Assembly (NCBI RefSeq): GCF_900890425.1
Contig: NZ_CAAHFG010000001.1
Coordinates: 1,736,001 to 1,800,000, forward strand
Length of the DNA: 64,000 bases
From: Pontiella desulfatans
Lineage (GTDB): Bacteria; Verrucomicrobiota; Kiritimatiellia; Kiritimatiellales; Pontiellaceae
Reading direction: 5' to 3'
Within the stretch, counting starts at the first letter, position 1. Each line of letters begins with the position of its first letter. The translations under genes were made by a program, and so were the position numbers. The notes under the pieces were generated by a model, which had not been told where the DNA came from, did no database searches, and saw only the letters and a list, made by a program, of their open reading frames with translations. Below, in pieces: positions 16,630-26,101 of the stretch.

Positions 16630-18213
16630 ATGTCTAAAAAAACACAAGCGATTGAACTGAGCGAAAAGACGAAGGCGGAGGACAAGGTTCCGCTGTTCCA
16701 GAAGATTGCCTATTCCATGGGCGTGGTCTCCGACCACTATGCGAACGTCTGCCTGGCCTGGATTTTCCTGACGCCCTTCTTTGTCGACTTCCTCGGACTG
16801 GGCGCGACGGTGGTTGGCCTGGCGCTGGGGGCGGCACGCTGCTGGGATGCATTCACCGATCCGCTGGTGGGGCGCATTTCCGACCGTACCCGGAGCCGCT
16901 ACGGTCGGCGAAAACCGTTTATCTTTGTGGGCGCGATTTTGACGGGGATGATGTTCCCGCTGATCTGGCTGGTGCCGGAGGGCTGGTCGACCACGGCGAT
17001 CACCGCCTACCTGTTTGTTGCGCTGATGATCTTTTTCTCGGTCTACTCCATTTTCTCCGTGCCCTACGAGGCGCTGGGTTCGGAACTGACCGCCGACTAC
17101 AGCGAACGCAGCTGGATCTTCATCGTTCGCAAATATGTGCAGGAAATCTTCAACCTCGGCATTGTCTGGGTGTTCCCCCTGGCCGCTTGGCTGGGCAAGC
17201 GGGTCGGCGGCGAAGTCAACGGCGTACGCGCCATCAGCTGGGTCATCGGCGGCATCATCATTGTGGCGGGCATCCTGCCGGCCATCTTCAACAAGGAGCG
17301 CTACAAGGACATCGCCGTCCAGGAGGGCACCGGCAGCTTCAAGGAGGGCTTGGGGGCCTTGGTCCGGAACAAGCCGCTGCTCATCGTCATCGGCGTGATT
17401 GCCACCTACCTCTTCGCCATCATGGCCACGGCCAATCTCTCCTACTTCGTCAACGTCTATTATATCTACGGCGGGGATGTCCAGAAGGGCGCCAACCTCG
17501 GCGGCATCGACGGCACCCTGCGCCTGGGCTTCGCACTCGGCGCCGCCTGGGTGATCGGCCTGATCGGCAACAAGGTCGACAAGCACAAGATCATGATCTT
17601 CTCGTGCGCCACCCTGCTGGTGGCCTTTATCGGCATGTTCTTCACCACCATCCCCGGCAAGCCCTGGCTGGCGCTTTCCATGAAGCCGCTCGTGGCCATC
17701 GGCGAATGCGGCTTCTGGGTGCTGATCCTTTCCATGCGCGCCGACGTTTGCGACTGGGACGAATACAACACGGGGTCGCGCAGCGAGGGGATGATCGCCG
17801 CCATCACCAACTGGTGCAATAAAATCGCCATGACCCTCGCCATCGTCATCTCCGGCTGGAACCTCGAACACGTCGTCAAGTTCGATAGCAAGCTCGACGA
17901 GGGAACCAAGGCGGCGGTGATGGCCAAGGCCGAAGCGTCATACGCCGAGCTGACCGAAGCGCAAAAGGTGGAGGCCGGGAACGGCACGGAAATCACGCTC
18001 GATGCCTACACCGACGGCATGGAGCGCCAGGCCGTCATGGATAACCTGGAGCCGGGCACCATGCGGCGCCTGCGCATCTTCTATTCGCTGCCGCAGGCCG
18101 GGGCGCTGGTGCTCTGCTTGTTCATGCTGGGCCGCTATCCGCTCACCAAGCGCAAGATGGAGGAGATTCGCAAGGAACTCGAAAGCCGCCGCGGCACAAC
18201 CTCGGCAACCTAA
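16630..18213 (+). CDS. GPH-family sugar:cation symporter (MFS)
   Basis: 527 residues with about twelve membrane segments. The GPH pattern is present: [48 protein letters not shown] near the N-terminus, [18 protein letters not shown] after the fourth segment, and [17 protein letters not shown] later. Between the last segments is an acidic insert ([24 protein letters not shown]...). A GAAAGGGA ribosome site precedes the ATG. Position between GH50 and GH86 suggests uptake of neoagaro-oligosaccharides. No SusC/D pair was found in the window, so import at this step appears to rely on MFS carriers. Confidence 0.92.
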
Positions 18214-18224
18214 TGGAGCTTAGC

Positions 18225-20078
18225 ATGAAAAATACGCATGGGTTTATTGTTGGGGTGGTCTGGCTGGTGGCATCAACCGCGCTGGCCGAAACGGTCGAGG
18301 TGGAACTCGATCCCGCTTGCGTGCGCAACATCGGCGGCGTGACCGCATTCGACCGCGCGCAATTCATCACCATCCATGACGGCTTCGGGTCGACGGACAT
18401 CAACGAGCACGATGTCCGCTACCTGGAGGATGAATTGGAGGTGCGCTACGGGCGCGACGGCGGGTTTATCACTTGGATGGCGGCCGAGGTCGGGGCCGAC
18501 CCGGCCAAGCCGGAAATGCCGAACCTGCAGGATCTAAAGGACGTCCTGAAGAAATACCGGGAGGAGGTCGAACCCTTCCGCATGGTGCCGAAGCACATGC
18601 GCGACGTGGTGTTCTGCACCCACCCGGAGCAAATGCACGGCTTTGCCGACAACACCTTCACGGCCTGGGGGCCGCGGACGCCGGAGGCGACGGCCGAGCT
18701 TACCGCCCAGTTGCTCAAGCACGGTTTTTCCGACGAGGAACGACCGCGTTTCCTGGAGGTCTACAACGAACCGTTCGTAAAGGCGAAAAAGATCCCCGCC
18801 ACCATTGAATCGATGTGCGAGCAGCATAATGTGGTGGCCAAGCGCGTGAAGGAGCTTACCCCGAATGTGCTGGTGGGTGGCTATGCCGCCGCTTGGGTCG
18901 AGGTGGAAGACCGCAACTTCGAGCACTGGAACGGTTGGCAAAAAACCTTCATGGATATCGCCGGTGAAAACATGGATTTCTGGTCGTACCACATTTACGA
19001 CGGCGTCAATGTGATGGGGTCGCCGCGCAACCGCACCGGCAGCAACTCCGAGGCGATCATGGATCTGATCGACACCTATAGCCATATCAAGTTCGGCGTG
19101 GCCAAACCGATCATGATTACGGAATACGGCAAGATTCCCGGCGGAAACATGAACTCGATGCCCTACAGCGCCGAGCGTTCGGCCGGCATGCTCTACTCGG
19201 CCATGGGGCAGTTGATGACCTTCATGGACCATCCCGACCGGTTGTTGAAAACCATTCCGTTCTTCCTCGGCAAGGCCACCTGGACCTACGGGATGACCAA
19301 CGACCACGTGCCCGGCGAGGCCAATCCGTTTCTGCTGTGGCGCAAGACCGCGGAAGGGGACTACGTGGAAACCGACCTGACGCTCTTCTATCAGTTTTGG
19401 AAAGGCGTTGAAGGCGAGTGGCGAAAAAGTGCCAGCTCCAATCCCGATGTGCGCGTCCATGCGCTGCACGACGGAAAACGCCTGAATGTTGCGTTCATGA
19501 ACCTGGATGAGGATGCGAAGCGGGTAGGGCTGTCCGGCTTGGATGGCATTCAAGCGGCCGCCGTGTCGCTACGGACGCTAACGACCCATGGCAGGAAACC
19601 GGTGCTCGGCCAGCGCACCATGGACAAGGTTCCGGCCTCGTTGGAACTCGAACCCGGTGAAGCCGCCCTGCTGATGATTGACCTGGGCACGGCCCTGAAG
19701 CCGAAACGCGGCGTGCGGGAGCATCGCATTTATGCCACGGAATATCTGAAGGATATCGAGGCGGGCAAGCCGGTTGTCTTCAACTATCCGAATACGCCGA
19801 CCGGAAACGGATCGGCGCTGCTGCGGGTTTCGGCCGGCCGCAAGCTGGGGCGGAAAATCCTGCCGGACTCCGTGAGGTTCAACGGCCATGAACTGTCGAT
19901 TCCGACAAACTGGGCGGGAGACGACCAAGCGGGGCGCGCCAACTATTTTGGCATGATCGAAATCCCGGTGGGGATGGACTTGGTTCGGGATGCGAACACG
20001 GTGGAGGTCCGCTATCCCGATGCCGGCGGCAAGGTGGCCAGCGTTGTTCTCCAGGTGAACCGCATGGAGGAGCTTTAA
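18225..20078 (+). CDS. exported GH86 beta-agarase/porphyranase
   Basis: 617 residues. A signal peptide ([21 protein letters not shown]) precedes the GH86 barrel: [29 protein letters not shown] with acid/base E182, [10 protein letters not shown], and nucleophile [10 protein letters not shown] with E300. C-terminal beta domains ([19 protein letters not shown] onward) match those of the paralogue at 36692. The ATG at 18225 is preferred to 18213 because GGAG lies 6 bases before it and the signal peptide then starts properly. GH86 members are endo-acting on agarose or porphyran; the choice between them cannot be made from sequence alone. Confidence 0.92.
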
Positions 20079-20081
20079 GCC

Positions 20082-21551
20082 ATGTTGAAATCCGCAATCT
20101 TTAAATTGGCCCTGGCGTTGGTGGCCTTCAGCTTGCACGCCGATGAACGCCCCAACATTCTCATCATTCTTGCCGACGATCTGGGGTATGGCGACCTTGG
20201 GTTTACGGGGTCGAAAGCCATCAAGACGCCGGTGCTCGATGCGTTGGCGAAGGGCGGGGTGGTGTGCGAAAACGGATATGTGACGCACTCCTATTGCGGC
20301 CCTTCGCGCGCCGGCTTGCTGACCGGGCGTCACCAGGCGCGCTTCGGCATGGAAATCAATGCCACCTATTCGCCCTACGACATGCACATGGGGCTTCCTC
20401 CGGAACAGAAGACCTTCGGCAAGCGGTTGCAGGCCGCCGGATACCGTACGGGGCTCATCGGGAAGTGGCACTTGGGAGCCGCTCCGAACCATCATCCCAA
20501 CCATCGGGGATTCGACTATTTCCATGGGTTCCTCGGAGGAGGGCACTGCTATTGGCCGGAGCAGGTCACGATGACCATGCCGCTACTGATGGAAGACGGG
20601 AAGATCAACTATGGAGCAAACCAGGGAACGTCCCATCCGTTGCTGCGCAACGACCGCGAGGCCGAATTCAATGAATATTTGACGACCGCGCTCAGCCGCG
20701 ATGCCGCCCGTTTCGTTCAGGAGAGCGAGGAGCCGTTTTGTCTTTATCTGGCCTACAACGCACCGCACAGTCCGTTGGAAGCACCGAAGGAAACCATTGC
20801 CAAATATGGCCACATCCAAGACCGTAACCGCCGGATCTATGCCGCGATGGTGGATGAGATGGACCAGGGGATCGGCATGGTGGTCGATGCGCTCAAGGAG
20901 AGCGGCAAGTTTGAAAACACGTTGATCTTTTTCCTGTCGGATAACGGTGGCGTTGGAACGCCACCCTGGAACCCGTCGGAAAACTGGGCGGACAACGGTC
21001 CGTTCCGCCAGGGCAAAGCCAGCTGGATGGAGGGCGGAATCCATGTGCCCTATCTGGTGCACTGGCCGAAAGCGCTGAAGCCGGGAACCTTCAAGGGGCT
21101 GGTCTCGGCTCTGGATATTACGGCCACCGCCGTAGCGCTTGCCGGTGGCGATACCTCCGGCGAACCGTTGGATGGCGTGAACCTGATTCCCTATCTCGCG
21201 GGCAGCAAAAAGGGTTCGCCGCACGCCGCGCTTTATTGGCGCGAACGCAACAGCACTTCGTGGGCCGTGCGCACGCCGCAGGCCAAGTTTGTGAAGAATG
21301 CCTGGGAGCGCGGCGAGCTTTGCGTCTACGACATGGTGAACGATCCATACGAATCCACCAACGTGATCGACCATGTGCCGGAAAAACGTGCGGAGCTGGC
21401 CCGGTTGTGGAACGACTGGAACGCCGTCAACAAAGCCAATGTCCTGCTTCACGCCTACGAGTATCAGGAGCTCCGCTTGAAGATGTATGAGGATCTTCAC
21501 CGGGAGCTGGAAGCAAAAGCCGCAAAGACCAAGCCGGTTGTCATTGATTAA
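20082..21551 (+). CDS. exported S1-family sulfatase
   Basis: 489 residues with a signal peptide (MLKSAIFKLALALVAFSLHA). Sulfatase motifs: RPNILIILADDLGYGDLGFTG, formylglycine motif YCGPSRAGLLTGR with C72, IGKWHLGA, LIFFLSDNGG, and a trimmed C-terminal tail. It is 3 bases after the GH86 stop and ends the five-gene operon 12164-21551. It probably removes sulfate from galactan oligosaccharides. The 3' end overlaps a small convergent ORF by 4 bases. Confidence 0.92.
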   Translation: MLKSAIFKLALALVAFSLHADERPNILIILADDLGYGDLGFTGSKAIKTPVLDALAKGGVVCENGYVTHSYCGPSRAGLLTGRHQARFGMEINATYSPYDMHMGLPPEQKTFGKRLQAAGYRTGLIGKWHLGAAPNHHPNHRGFDYFHGFLGGGHCYWPEQVTMTMPLLMEDGKINYGANQGTSHPLLRNDREAEFNEYLTTALSRDAARFVQESEEPFCLYLAYNAPHSPLEAPKETIAKYGHIQDRNRRIYAAMVDEMDQGIGMVVDALKESGKFENTLIFFLSDNGGVGTPPWNPSENWADNGPFRQGKASWMEGGIHVPYLVHWPKALKPGTFKGLVSALDITATAVALAGGDTSGEPLDGVNLIPYLAGSKKGSPHAALYWRERNSTSWAVRTPQAKFVKNAWERGELCVYDMVNDPYESTNVIDHVPEKRAELARLWNDWNAVNKANVLLHAYEYQELRLKMYEDLHRELEAKAAKTKPVVID

Positions 21552-21697: not shown

Positions 21698-22020
21698 GGC
21701 TTCTCCCTGTCTGCCAGCGGTTGTCCATCGCGGGATTGCGGTGGTAGTGCGCTAGCGACAACCACCCCTATTGCATAGGGTGTGCCATCGCCTTTTCCAG
21801 GGGCGCAAGTATATTCGCGGCAACGGAATGGGACGTTTGTCGCGTGTTTTAGGGGTTGTTTTCGGCGAACCTTGCATGAATAGCATGCATACAGTTAATG
21901 AAGGCTTGCGCATCTATTGGCCAAAAGTCCTATATCCACGCGGTAAGCCCGCTGTTATAGATGGGCGTTCCAACCTGTGGCTCCGGGAATCGAGACGTAG
22001 TGCTGGTAAAAAGGGTTTTC
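21698..22020 (+). promoter_or_regulatory. regulatory region upstream of sugar porter
   Basis: No gene seen in 323 bases. It holds a near-palindrome CACCCCTAT-TGC-ATAGGGTG (21763-21782) and the operator-like GGCCAAAAGTCCTAT (21919-21933), 100 bases before the porter ATG. TTATAG at 21954 is a possible -10 element. The last 40 bases lead into the ATG at 22021 with only a weak ribosome site (AAAAAGGG). Confidence 0.5.
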
Positions 22021-23583
22021 ATGAATAAACAGGTTAAGGCATTTTTCTATTCGGTGGTCGTGGCTCTCGGCGGTTTCGTCTTCGGCCTCGATGCCGCGGT
22101 GATTTCCGGCACGGTCAAATTCATTACTGCGGAGTTCGGGCTCAACGATCTTCAGGTGGGCACGGCAGTCAGTGCGCCGGGGTTCGGCGTGCTCATCGCA
22201 CTGTTGATTACGCCGTGGCTGTGTAATCGCTTCGGTCGTAAGAAGACACTGATCCTGATTTCCGCCCTCTATTGGGTGTCGGCTGTTACTTCCGCGCTCG
22301 CGCCGACTTATTGGAGCCTTGTCGCAGCCCGCTTCCTGGGCGGGTTGGCGTTCACCTCGCTCACCGTGGCTGCAATGTATATTGGCGAGGTTGCGCCGCC
22401 TCGCTGGCGCGGCAAGCTGGTATCGATCAACCAAATGAACATTGTCTTTGGTCTGTCGGCGGCCTATTTCGTGAACTACTTCCTGATTCAGGCCATGAAT
22501 AACGATGCCGGGTGGGCCGTTGCCGTGAACCTGAAGGAGAATATCTGGCGCTTCATGCTCGGTTCGGAAATTATTCCCGCATTCATCTGGCTCGGCCTGC
22601 TGTTTCTTATTCCCGAGAGCCCGCGCTGGCTGGTGTATCGCGGGCGCATCGAAGAGGCCAAGGCGATCATGCACCGCATTACGCCGGATGATGAGATTGA
22701 TGGGCAGGTCAAGGCGATGGAAGAGAGCCTGCATCATGGAACCGAAGAGCTCTCGGGGCTTTCCCAGTTCCGCGAGCTGTTCCATAAGCGCATGCGGCTG
22801 GTGGTCGTTGTTGCGGTCGTCATTGCGGTTGCCCAGCAACTGTCGGGCATCAATGCCATCCTGTTTTACGCACCCACGGTCTTTGAGCAGCTTGGCGGAG
22901 GAACCGATGCCGCGTTTGCCCAGTCGCTCTGGGTGGGCCTCGTTTCCGTGATCTTCACGCTGGGTGCGATTCTGCTGGTCGACCGGTTGGGGCGGCGGCC
23001 TTTGATCCTGATCGGCCTGATGTGGGTGGTGGTGAGTCATTCCCTGTGCTGGTGGGGCTTCAATACGGCGCGCTACACGTTGAGTGAAGAGGCGGTTGTT
23101 GAGCTTCCCGCGGAAGTTGACGCGGCCGCGCTGAAGCCGATGCTCGGTCAGGAATTCAAGAGCGATATCGCATTCAAGAGCGCGCTCATCGATGCATTGG
23201 GCGAGACCGAGGCGCGGGTGCATTCAGCCGAGATTCTCAAACAATCCGCGGATATGAACGCAACGCTGATCCTGATCGGCATCCTCAGCTTTATTTCCGC
23301 GTTCCACTTCTCGCTGGGGCCGGTGATGTGGGTGCTGTTTTCGGAACTGTTTCCGACCTCGTTGCGCGGCGTTGCGATACCCTTTTTTGTGTTGATCAGC
23401 AGTGTGATCAGCTTCCTCGTGCAAAAGTTTTTTCCGTGGCAGCTCGCGAACATGGGCGGCGAAGCCATATTTATGTTCTACGGGATCGTTGCATTGGTCG
23501 GCTTTGTCTGGTTACTGCCGATCCTGCCGGAAACGAAGAATTTGAGTATTGAAGAGATCCAGCTGAAGCTGGAAAGAAAATAG
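22021..23583 (+). CDS. sugar-porter-family MFS transporter
   Basis: 520 residues with twelve predicted membrane segments and the SP-family marks: GFVFGLDAAVISG, NRFGRKKTLI, LGGLAFTSLTVAAMYIGEVAP, IPESPRWLVYRGR, QQLSGINAILFYAP, DRLGRRPLI and the terminal LPETKNLSIEEI. An extra loop of about 70 residues (YTLSEEAVVELPAEVD to AEILKQSADMN) lies between segments 9 and 10, where most porters have a short loop. It likely imports a monosaccharide or disaccharide from agar breakdown. The start at 22021 rather than 21961 agrees with the porter N-terminus. Confidence 0.92.
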   Translation: MNKQVKAFFYSVVVALGGFVFGLDAAVISGTVKFITAEFGLNDLQVGTAVSAPGFGVLIALLITPWLCNRFGRKKTLILISALYWVSAVTSALAPTYWSLVAARFLGGLAFTSLTVAAMYIGEVAPPRWRGKLVSINQMNIVFGLSAAYFVNYFLIQAMNNDAGWAVAVNLKENIWRFMLGSEIIPAFIWLGLLFLIPESPRWLVYRGRIEEAKAIMHRITPDDEIDGQVKAMEESLHHGTEELSGLSQFRELFHKRMRLVVVVAVVIAVAQQLSGINAILFYAPTVFEQLGGGTDAAFAQSLWVGLVSVIFTLGAILLVDRLGRRPLILIGLMWVVVSHSLCWWGFNTARYTLSEEAVVELPAEVDAAALKPMLGQEFKSDIAFKSALIDALGETEARVHSAEILKQSADMNATLILIGILSFISAFHFSLGPVMWVLFSELFPTSLRGVAIPFFVLISSVISFLVQKFFPWQLANMGGEAIFMFYGIVALVGFVWLLPILPETKNLSIEEIQLKLERK

Positions 23584-23734: not shown

Positions 23735-25003
23735 ATGAATATATCGAAACAGGACGTCGGGATCCTGCGGGAGCTGGGCAGAAAGGCGGCGGAGCTTTCC
23801 GCAACGGACGACAACAAACAGAAGATCGACAAGTGGACGCGGTTGACGGATCTCGACAAGAGCGCCGGGCCGCTGCAGCTGATCCACCTCTGGCCGCTGG
23901 CCTGGGCGGAAGCGTTGCCGGACGAACAACACCTGGTTTGCCAAAACGAAACCGCACGCAACTATGAGCGCGATCTGCGCCAGCGCATCTGGTCGGTGGA
24001 AAACCTGCACGACGATACGGTCATCGAACCGGTCATCCGCTATCCGCACTGCGTCGAGATCACGGCCTATCCCGAGCTTCCCGTCATGGCGCACTATGCC
24101 TCCGACGACCACGCGAAGACCGGCGCCTTTAAGTTTGAGTCGCCGATCGTCGAGATGGCTGATATCGAGAAAATCGGCGATCCGGTGGTGAAGGTCGATG
24201 CCGAACAACGCGAAGGTTATAAAGCCGAAGCGGAGGAAATCTTCGGTGGCATTCTTGACGTGATTCCAACCGGGATTTATTTTGCGGCCAAAGTGGTGGA
24301 TGAATGGGCCGGGTTGCGCGGCATGGAAAATGTCTACACCGATATGATGGATGAATCGGAGTGGACGCACGAGGCGTTGCAGCGGATTGCCGACAACTTC
24401 CAGAAGCGTTTCCAGACATTGGAAGAGCAGGGGCTTTGGGGCCCGTGGGAAAAATCAGACCCGCTGGGATCAACCGGCCTGCGCTTCAATCCAGATATCC
24501 CGAACTATCAGGACATCATGAAAAAGGGTAAGGCCGATCTGATGGATACCTGGGCCTTCACCTGCGCCGAGGGGTTCAACTGCGTTTCTCCGGGCATGCA
24601 CGAGGAGTTCGATCTGCCCTACAATGTGCAGCTGATGAAACTCTTCAAGTGGGTCAACGTGGGGTGTTGCGAAGTGCTGCACAACAAGGTTGAGTTTGTG
24701 AAGAACGTGCCGAACGTGCGCCGGATATCGGTCAGCGAATGGTGCGATTTCGAGAAGGCCGGCGCCGAGATCGGCACCGAGCTGCTCTATGGCTACAAGC
24801 CCTCCGGCGTGCCGTTCCTCGGCGACGGATTGCACGAGGATCAAGTCCGCAAGGAGCTTCGACGCGTTTTGGATGCGGCGAAGGATTGCCCGCTGGAAAT
24901 GATTCTCAACATCGGCGGCACCCTGGGTGGTGGCGACGGCGCCGCCAAGCTGGTGGAGTGGACAAAGATTGCGAAGGAAGAAATCGAAGCAACCAAGGGT
25001 TAG
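23735..25003 (+). CDS. uroporphyrinogen decarboxylase-family (UroD-like) methyltransferase candidate
   Basis: 422 residues of the URO-D superfamily but not HemE: it lacks the HemE N-terminal PVWxMRQAGR motif and has the KWVNVGCCEVLHNKVEFV segment, followed by PNVRRISVSEWCDFEKA, seen in a PVC and clostridial UroD-like group. The superfamily includes corrinoid-dependent methyltransferases such as MtaA, CmuA and O-demethylase components, in which Cys/His ligands bind zinc. The C-C-x5-H cluster could serve that way. No signal peptide. It is placed between a sugar porter and a cytoplasmic GH117, suggesting a step in sugar processing, for example demethylation of 6-O-methyl-galactose. That is a hypothesis; no corrinoid protein is in the window. 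RBS AAAGGTAATC is weak. Confidence 0.7.
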   Translation: MNISKQDVGILRELGRKAAELSATDDNKQKIDKWTRLTDLDKSAGPLQLIHLWPLAWAEALPDEQHLVCQNETARNYERDLRQRIWSVENLHDDTVIEPVIRYPHCVEITAYPELPVMAHYASDDHAKTGAFKFESPIVEMADIEKIGDPVVKVDAEQREGYKAEAEEIFGGILDVIPTGIYFAAKVVDEWAGLRGMENVYTDMMDESEWTHEALQRIADNFQKRFQTLEEQGLWGPWEKSDPLGSTGLRFNPDIPNYQDIMKKGKADLMDTWAFTCAEGFNCVSPGMHEEFDLPYNVQLMKLFKWVNVGCCEVLHNKVEFVKNVPNVRRISVSEWCDFEKAGAEIGTELLYGYKPSGVPFLGDGLHEDQVRKELRRVLDAAKDCPLEMILNIGGTLGGGDGAAKLVEWTKIAKEEIEATKG

Positions 25004-25024: not shown

Positions 25025-26101
25025 ATGAGTGAAAAAAAAATGAGTGCGGCAACGAAGCGGGCGATGGAACGGAATTATTTCCAGGGCCCGGAATGGTATT
25101 GCGAGATTGTTTCCAAACCGATCACCGGCGATCTGGCGGAAGAGCGCGATGGCATGGTACGGCGCGATCCGAGTGCCGTGATTGAAGTAGACGGCCTCTA
25201 CCACGTTTGGTACAGCCGCTCCACCGGCAAGAGCCATGGCTTTGGCAGTGGCGACCTGGAGGCCAAGACCTTCCCGTGGGACCATTGCGATCTGTGGCAT
25301 GCCACCAGCAAGGACGGCTGGCACTGGGAAGAGCAGGAGCTGGCCGTGGCCCGCGGCGAAAAAGGGGCCTATGACGACCGCAGCGTCTTCACGCCCGAAA
25401 TCCTCGCGCATGACGGGAAATTCTATCTGGTCTATCAGGTGGTCACCTCCCCGTATGTGCGCCGCTCGTACGAAAACATTTCCATCTCGGTTGCCGATTC
25501 TCCCTGCGGCCCGTGGGAAAAGTTGCCGGGGCCGGTGCTGGAGGCCGAGCAGGACGGGGAGTGGGAAGGCGATGCGGACAACCGTTTCCTCGTGAAGAGC
25601 AAGGGTAGCTTCGACAGCCATAAAGTGCATGACCCGACCCTGATGTTTTTCAACGACAAGTTTTACCTCTATTACAAAGGCGAGCCGATGGGCGAGGAAA
25701 TGTTCATGGGCGGTCGCGAAACCAAATGGGGGGTTGCCATTGCCGACCAGGTGGAGGGGCCGTATGTGAAGAGCGAATATAATCCGATCTCCAACTCCGG
25801 CCATGAAATCTGCGTGTGGCACTACAACGGCGGTATTGCCGGCATGCTGACCACCGACGGGCCCGAGCGCAACACGATGCAGTGGGCGCCGGACGGCATC
25901 AACTTCGAGATCAAGGCCTACATCAAGGGCGCGCCGGAAGCCAACGGCCTGTTCCGCACGCCCGATCACGACCAGCATCCGCTTGAAGGCCTGCGCTGGG
26001 GACTTTGCCACGAAGTAACCAACCAGGCCGGCTGGATGCGCCGCTTCGAGGTGGATGAAGGGCTGAAGTCCTTTTTCATCAACCGCAATACCTACGAGTA
26101 G
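25025..26101 (+). CDS. cytoplasmic GH117 neoagarobiose hydrolase-like enzyme
   Basis: 358 residues, no signal peptide. The five-bladed propeller family GH117 is recognised from [19 protein letters not shown] (D48), [61 protein letters not shown] and [17 protein letters not shown]117 releases 3,6-anhydro-L-galactose from neoagaro-oligosaccharides. Cytoplasmic location fits hydrolysis after import by the neighbouring porters. GGAGGT lies close to the ATG, and the gap from the UroD-like stop is 21 bases. A paralogue with a signal peptide is at 47457. Confidence 0.92.

Follow-up and report, generated by a model that had tools for sequence, protein, structure and literature searches.

A gene of Pontiella desulfatans is a candidate for the oxygen-free demethylation of a red-algal sugar. 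It lies at positions 23735-25003, on the plus strand, of the 64,000-nucleotide stretch analyzed here (hereafter the window; C1:1736001-1800000 of an 8.66 Mb genome), and forms an intact open reading frame of 422 amino acids with an ATG start. There is about an even chance that its product is a corrinoid-dependent methyltransferase I acting on an O-methylated sugar of galactan, of which 6-O-methyl-D-galactose is the likeliest. To our knowledge, no oxygen-free enzyme for demethylating red-algal galactose has been described. The initial annotation had likewise proposed an anaerobic demethylase; the protein class, the corrinoid machinery of the genome, co-occurrence with the corrinoid activase RACo and gene arrays elsewhere now speak for it, whereas methyl transfer, substrate and partner are what we infer. 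The frame is not a chance one, because orthologs of 85-89% amino acid identity keep its length and position in three other Pontiellaceae. In porphyran the well documented methyl sugar is 6-O-methyl-D-galactose, for which porphyran-degrading aerobes have a dedicated P450 (PMC10033563), while an anaerobic route has been stated to be unknown (PMC12316285). A literature search retrieved no paper linking corrinoid methyltransferases to sugar demethylation, none pairing corrinoid with 6-O-methyl-D-galactose and none pairing Kiritimatiellota with O-demethylation. P. desulfatans F1, a marine anaerobe that lives by fermentation, comes from sediment of the Black Sea (8.6 Mb, 56% GC; PMC7356697); the GC content of the window is 57.7%.

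Membership of the URO-D superfamily, as first proposed for the candidate, emerges from family profiles and a structural model and is invisible from the single sequence, which returned 0 matches each from Pfam, NCBIfam and the PDB (the latter with phmmer). Of 388 genomes searched in the phylum, 75 encode relatives at about 30% identity, some of them several, and P. desulfatans itself has two paralogs. The candidate and these relatives make up a large and hitherto undescribed family of Verrucomicrobiota. An alignment of 31 members is invariant at W34, P46, E78, W273, P286, G310, C311, C312, R329, P356, T396 and W409. PF01208 is weakly matched by 13 of the 31 (best E 3.5e-4) and the family profile gives sub-threshold UROD matches only in the PDB, but aligned with hhalign to a URO-D alignment the family scores 97.4% (E 1.1e-11). 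An AlphaFold model built from the 31-sequence alignment reached pLDDT 87.2 and pTM 0.86 (the candidate sequence alone had given pLDDT 37), and structure comparison placed this model closest to UROD (Z 18.6) and MtaA (Z 16.2 to 4ay7), ahead of MetE (mostly 9-11) and other barrels (below 9). Profile comparison and predicted fold together thus identify a URO-D superfamily protein.

Within the superfamily, two familiar identities were considered and rejected. HemE is excluded, as the initial annotation had held: the P.W.MR.AGR (PxWxMRQAGR) signature is absent, residues 310-317 read GCCEVLHN and TIGR01464 is unmatched at E 1 in 31/31 members. Placement among proven decarboxylases, which would have told against a methyltransferase, has so far not been found; there is neither a HemE signature nor a model match, and in a tree of family members and Pontiella URO-Ds only, the candidate stands far from the other URO-Ds of its genome. 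MtaA/CmuA membership by motif or model also fails, since the HxC...C zinc ligands are not conserved and TIGR01463 is touched by a single member of the 31, at E 0.28. The family carries YGCCE near the corresponding zinc-site strand, a residue match that is uncertain by 1-2 positions, and KDIST at the last strand, where the candidate has NIGGT. Loss of the zinc motif is not fatal to a methyltransferase role, because CdmB and Moorella MtvB, both URO-D methyltransferases, do without zinc (PMC13222342).

A methyltransferase I of this kind would need a corrinoid protein and an activase. The initial annotation saw as its weak point that neither was in the window, and the locus indeed holds no corrinoid gene; a corrinoid protein, RACo and a methyl-tetrahydrofolate (methyl-THF) methyltransferase-like domain are all present elsewhere on the contig, so that the genome does not lack the machinery. 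P. desulfatans encodes a single RACo and a single stand-alone corrinoid protein (C1:1924659-1925285; a second B12-binding_2 match lies in a 1275-aa frame that is probably MetH), which sit together at C1:1924.6-1927.0 kb, about 165 kb from the candidate. Their cluster comprises FolD, an MTHFR fusion, FocA, FTHFS, the corrinoid protein, RACo and DUF1638 (L059:41-9876; C1:1918-1928 kb). The MTHFR (824 aa) is fused to a methyl-THF:corrinoid methyltransferase-like domain, and a URO-D-thioredoxin protein of the MtaA/CmuA type begins some 3.8 kb beyond the cluster. Its order is largely intact in four other Pontiellaceae, with FocA uncalled in one and the MTHFR fusion in another; P. sulfatireligans retains the corrinoid protein, RACo and DUF1638 with URO-Ds near, and RACo is present in both P. 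sulfatireligans and Pontiellaceae B12227, two of the ortholog carriers. From gene content, the cluster may constitute a pathway that takes the corrinoid methyl via methyl-THF to formate and gains ATP at FTHFS, a direction that we infer. MttB, an alternative methyltransferase I for the corrinoid protein, is absent from the genome. So is any cytochrome P450, and the aerobic demethylation route is therefore unavailable.

Other URO-D genes of the genome lie in loci with sulfatase and GH2 genes (L066:6361-7476 and L065:6017-7114). These suggest further sugar-linked methyltransferases and one corrinoid hub serving several substrate-specific enzymes. The first of the two loci also encodes a protein (L066:8900-11659) in which a hydrazine synthase alpha middle domain is recognized (PF18582, E 2e-25).

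The distribution of the family across the phylum points to the same machinery. RACo was found in 71 of the 75 family-carrying genomes and in 70 of the 313 others (Fisher p 1e-32); counted by genus the figures are 54/56 and 47/142 (p 8e-18), and within the candidate's own genus 3/3 and 2/8 (p 0.06). Kinship among genomes means that these p-values overstate independence, and it is safer to rely on the count by genus. In three genomes (G060, G284 and G373) a family member has RACo and a corrinoid protein close by and some 7-10 further URO-D genes around it; in P. desulfatans the candidate and the corrinoid components are not encoded together. These arrays, each centred on one corrinoid protein and one RACo (L067:1-16001, L068:1-17001 and L069:1-16001, respectively), are possibly multi-substrate demethylation islands.

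The same observations bear on whether a corrinoid is involved at all. A URO-D-fold enzyme working without such a partner, perhaps a lyase, decarboxylase or isomerase that helps to break down 3,6-anhydro-L-galactose or galactose, would account for the lost zinc motif and lost family-invariant residues, the distance to the corrinoid cluster and the mixed neighbourhoods of the family. It sits poorly with the co-occurrence of the family and RACo, the insertion of members into corrinoid arrays and the absence of both the HemE motif and a hemE model match. Moreover, the candidate appears dispensable for anhydrogalactose itself, because sister GH117 loci do without it. We regard this explanation as unlikely.

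The immediate surroundings of the candidate concern galactan breakdown, and six genes on the plus strand can be read as one locus:

16630..18213, plus strand: GPH-type sugar transporter of the major facilitator superfamily (MFS), for oligosaccharide import (Pfam MFS_2, E 1.5e-56; TIGR00792).
18213..20078, plus strand: secreted GH86 hydrolase of agarase/porphyranase type (BPA_C, 3.5e-27; Porphyrn_cat_1, 4e-23; PDB 5ta1, 8h97, 4aw7).
20082..21551, plus strand: secreted S1 sulfatase (Pfam Sulfatase, 3.7e-62; PDB 6bia, 9hh3).
21961..23583, plus strand: sugar porter family MFS transporter (TIGR00879, above cut-off).
23735..25003, plus strand: the candidate corrinoid-dependent O-demethylase (methyltransferase I), a divergent URO-D superfamily member (fold, profile, co-occurrence, synteny).
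25025..26101, plus strand: cytoplasmic GH117, 3,6-anhydro-L-galactosidase (PDB 3r4y, E 2e-139; 4ak5).

The GH86 protein has a signal-peptide-like N-terminus. The structures nearest to the sulfatase act on carrageenan, and related loci hold copies 81-83% identical to it. The candidate starts 151 bp after the end of the sugar porter and GH117 starts 21 bp past its stop, in agreement with the arrangement originally described, and the identity of the GH117 is solid. No signal peptide is seen at the GH117 N-terminus; judged from their N-termini, the candidate and GH117 are both predicted to be cytoplasmic.

Orthologs form a clade of four Pontiellaceae genomes among 338 of the class, namely P. desulfatans, P. 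sulfatireligans (89% amino acid identity to the candidate), B12227 and the metagenome-assembled genome SZUA-494. In 4/4 the gene stands directly before GH117. The GPH transporter, still beside GH86, and the sulfatase also precede it in P. sulfatireligans and B12227, as in the window, while the SZUA-494 contig is too short to show genes further upstream. In the co-carriers the ortholog lies between sulfatase and GH117; in the window it lies between the porter and GH117. The window GH117 is 91% identical to the copy in G035 and about 90% to that in G384, two sister genomes in which copies of the sugar porter (72%) adjoin GH117 and the candidate is missing; to the GH117 of the co-carriers it is only 61-63% identical. 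The GH117 alleles differ while the ortholog stays adjoined, and the pairing of candidate and GH117 has therefore outlasted allele replacement. Two GH117 lineages (~90% versus 62% identity) appear swapped at this locus (window 25025-26101; L143:9053-10126; L145:8979-10051), and the G384 copy is broken into two frames. No GPH-GH86 pair occurs in the stretches read of G035, G384 and G087, all candidate-free. Three loci with and three without the candidate fit, as far as gene content goes, an add-on for a galactan of other make-up, such as methylated porphyran.

This restricted distribution also bears on a role in general one-carbon metabolism, such as methyl supply to methionine or salvage in the manner of mlp clusters, with the place in the agar locus reflecting co-regulation only. 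URO-D members of mlp clusters have been proposed to act on methyl-sulfur compounds (PMC10418091), which lends the idea some precedent. It is nevertheless very improbable, given a gene that occurs in only 4/338 genomes of the class, all Pontiellaceae, and always adjoins GH117, and given that G035 and G384 keep the corrinoid cluster without it.

If the candidate is a sugar demethylase, the following route may be proposed. Secreted GH86 and sulfatases would cut red-algal galactan, and small oligosaccharides would enter via the GPH transporter and/or the sugar porter. GH117 would then take off 3,6-anhydro-L-galactose, releasing it together with D-galactose or its 6-O-methyl form and so leaving partly 6-O-methylated D-galactose in the cytoplasm. 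By methyl transfer from this sugar to cob(I)alamin, carried by the only stand-alone corrinoid protein of the genome, the candidate would release galactose, and RACo would hold the cobalt reduced. From there the methyl would reach THF via the MTHFR-fused methyltransferase domain and be oxidized to formate by MTHFR, FolD and FTHFS with a yield of ATP, the formate being exported by FocA.

The same chemistry could serve another methylated unit of the galactan, such as 2-O-methyl-3,6-anhydro-L-galactose, 4-O-methyl-L-galactose or a methylated oligosaccharide. The genomic evidence fits any O-methyl sugar of the locus, and a place before GH117 names none of them; 6-O-methyl-D-galactose is set apart by its documentation in porphyran and by the dedicated aerobic P450 (PMC10033563). 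We think it rather unlikely that one of these other units is the substrate.

Several observations weigh against sugar demethylation by a corrinoid enzyme. The partner genes are about 165 kb away and none lies in the candidate's locus, and the HxC...C zinc motif of MtaA/CmuA is not conserved in its family. The co-occurrence with RACo concerns the whole family, of which the agar clade is a long-branched part, standing on a long stem in the tree of family members and Pontiella URO-Ds. K392 and D393, invariant elsewhere in the family, are lost in this clade. Other GH117-bearing Pontiellaceae with RACo have no candidate gene. P. desulfatans showed no growth on agar, porphyran being unmentioned (PMC7356697), and a porphyran diet is not proven because GH86 relatives include agarases. 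Finally, the family elsewhere has mixed neighbours, with AraC regulators and few carbohydrate-active enzymes: a neighbourhood survey gave AraC regulators (10/102), URO-D (5), sulfatases (3) and fucosidases (2). No sugar role is claimed for the family as a whole, since it is not confined to polysaccharide loci. One of the two P. desulfatans paralogs directly follows a PhyH-type dioxygenase gene, near an AraC regulator and GH29 (L061:6601-8852); an enzyme of this kind is unexpected in an anaerobe. On the other side, the agar clade itself shares joint changes of conserved residues at predicted barrel-strand ends (Q279E, Y309V, S353G, K392N and D393I), and these, with the long stem, suggest a substrate differing from that of the rest of the family.

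A broader proposal, in which the missing anaerobic route for algal methyl sugars is supplied by sugar O-demethylases that form a new URO-D subfamily, share one corrinoid hub per genome and turn methyl groups into formate with a gain of ATP, is more tentative, and we put it at somewhat less than an even chance. If sugar demethylation by the candidate is correct, a gene and partner system would be at hand for the gap in anaerobic 6-O-methyl-D-galactose demethylation, directly open to assay. Corrinoid O-demethylation would widen from aromatics to carbohydrates, and a reading would be offered for many unassigned URO-D genes of Verrucomicrobiota.

The closest mechanistic parallels are MtvB, OdmB, VdmB, MtoB and CdmB, methyltransferases I of the same superfamily that work with a corrinoid protein, a methyltransferase II and an activase. 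These act on methoxy-aromatics or haloalkanes and have their partner genes nearby; unlike the MtvB-type enzymes and CdmB, the candidate lies in a galactan locus, would depend on a remote, possibly shared corrinoid module and is beyond the reach of family models. MtaA, MtbA and CmuA (TIGR01463) have a similar fold but a zinc motif that the candidate does not conserve. The P450 demethylase of aerobes, as summarized from Reisky 2018 in PMC10033563, shares the proposed substrate, 6-O-methyl-D-galactose, and the place in a porphyran locus, but it requires O2, yields formaldehyde and has no counterpart in P. desulfatans. The mlp clusters (Kountz and Balskus, PMC10418091) unite several URO-Ds, a corrinoid protein and an activase, as do the arrays of G060, G284 and G373; they are proposed for methyl-sulfur or methyl-selenium compounds and by definition have no tetrahydrofolate methylase nearby, whereas the Pontiella cluster has one.
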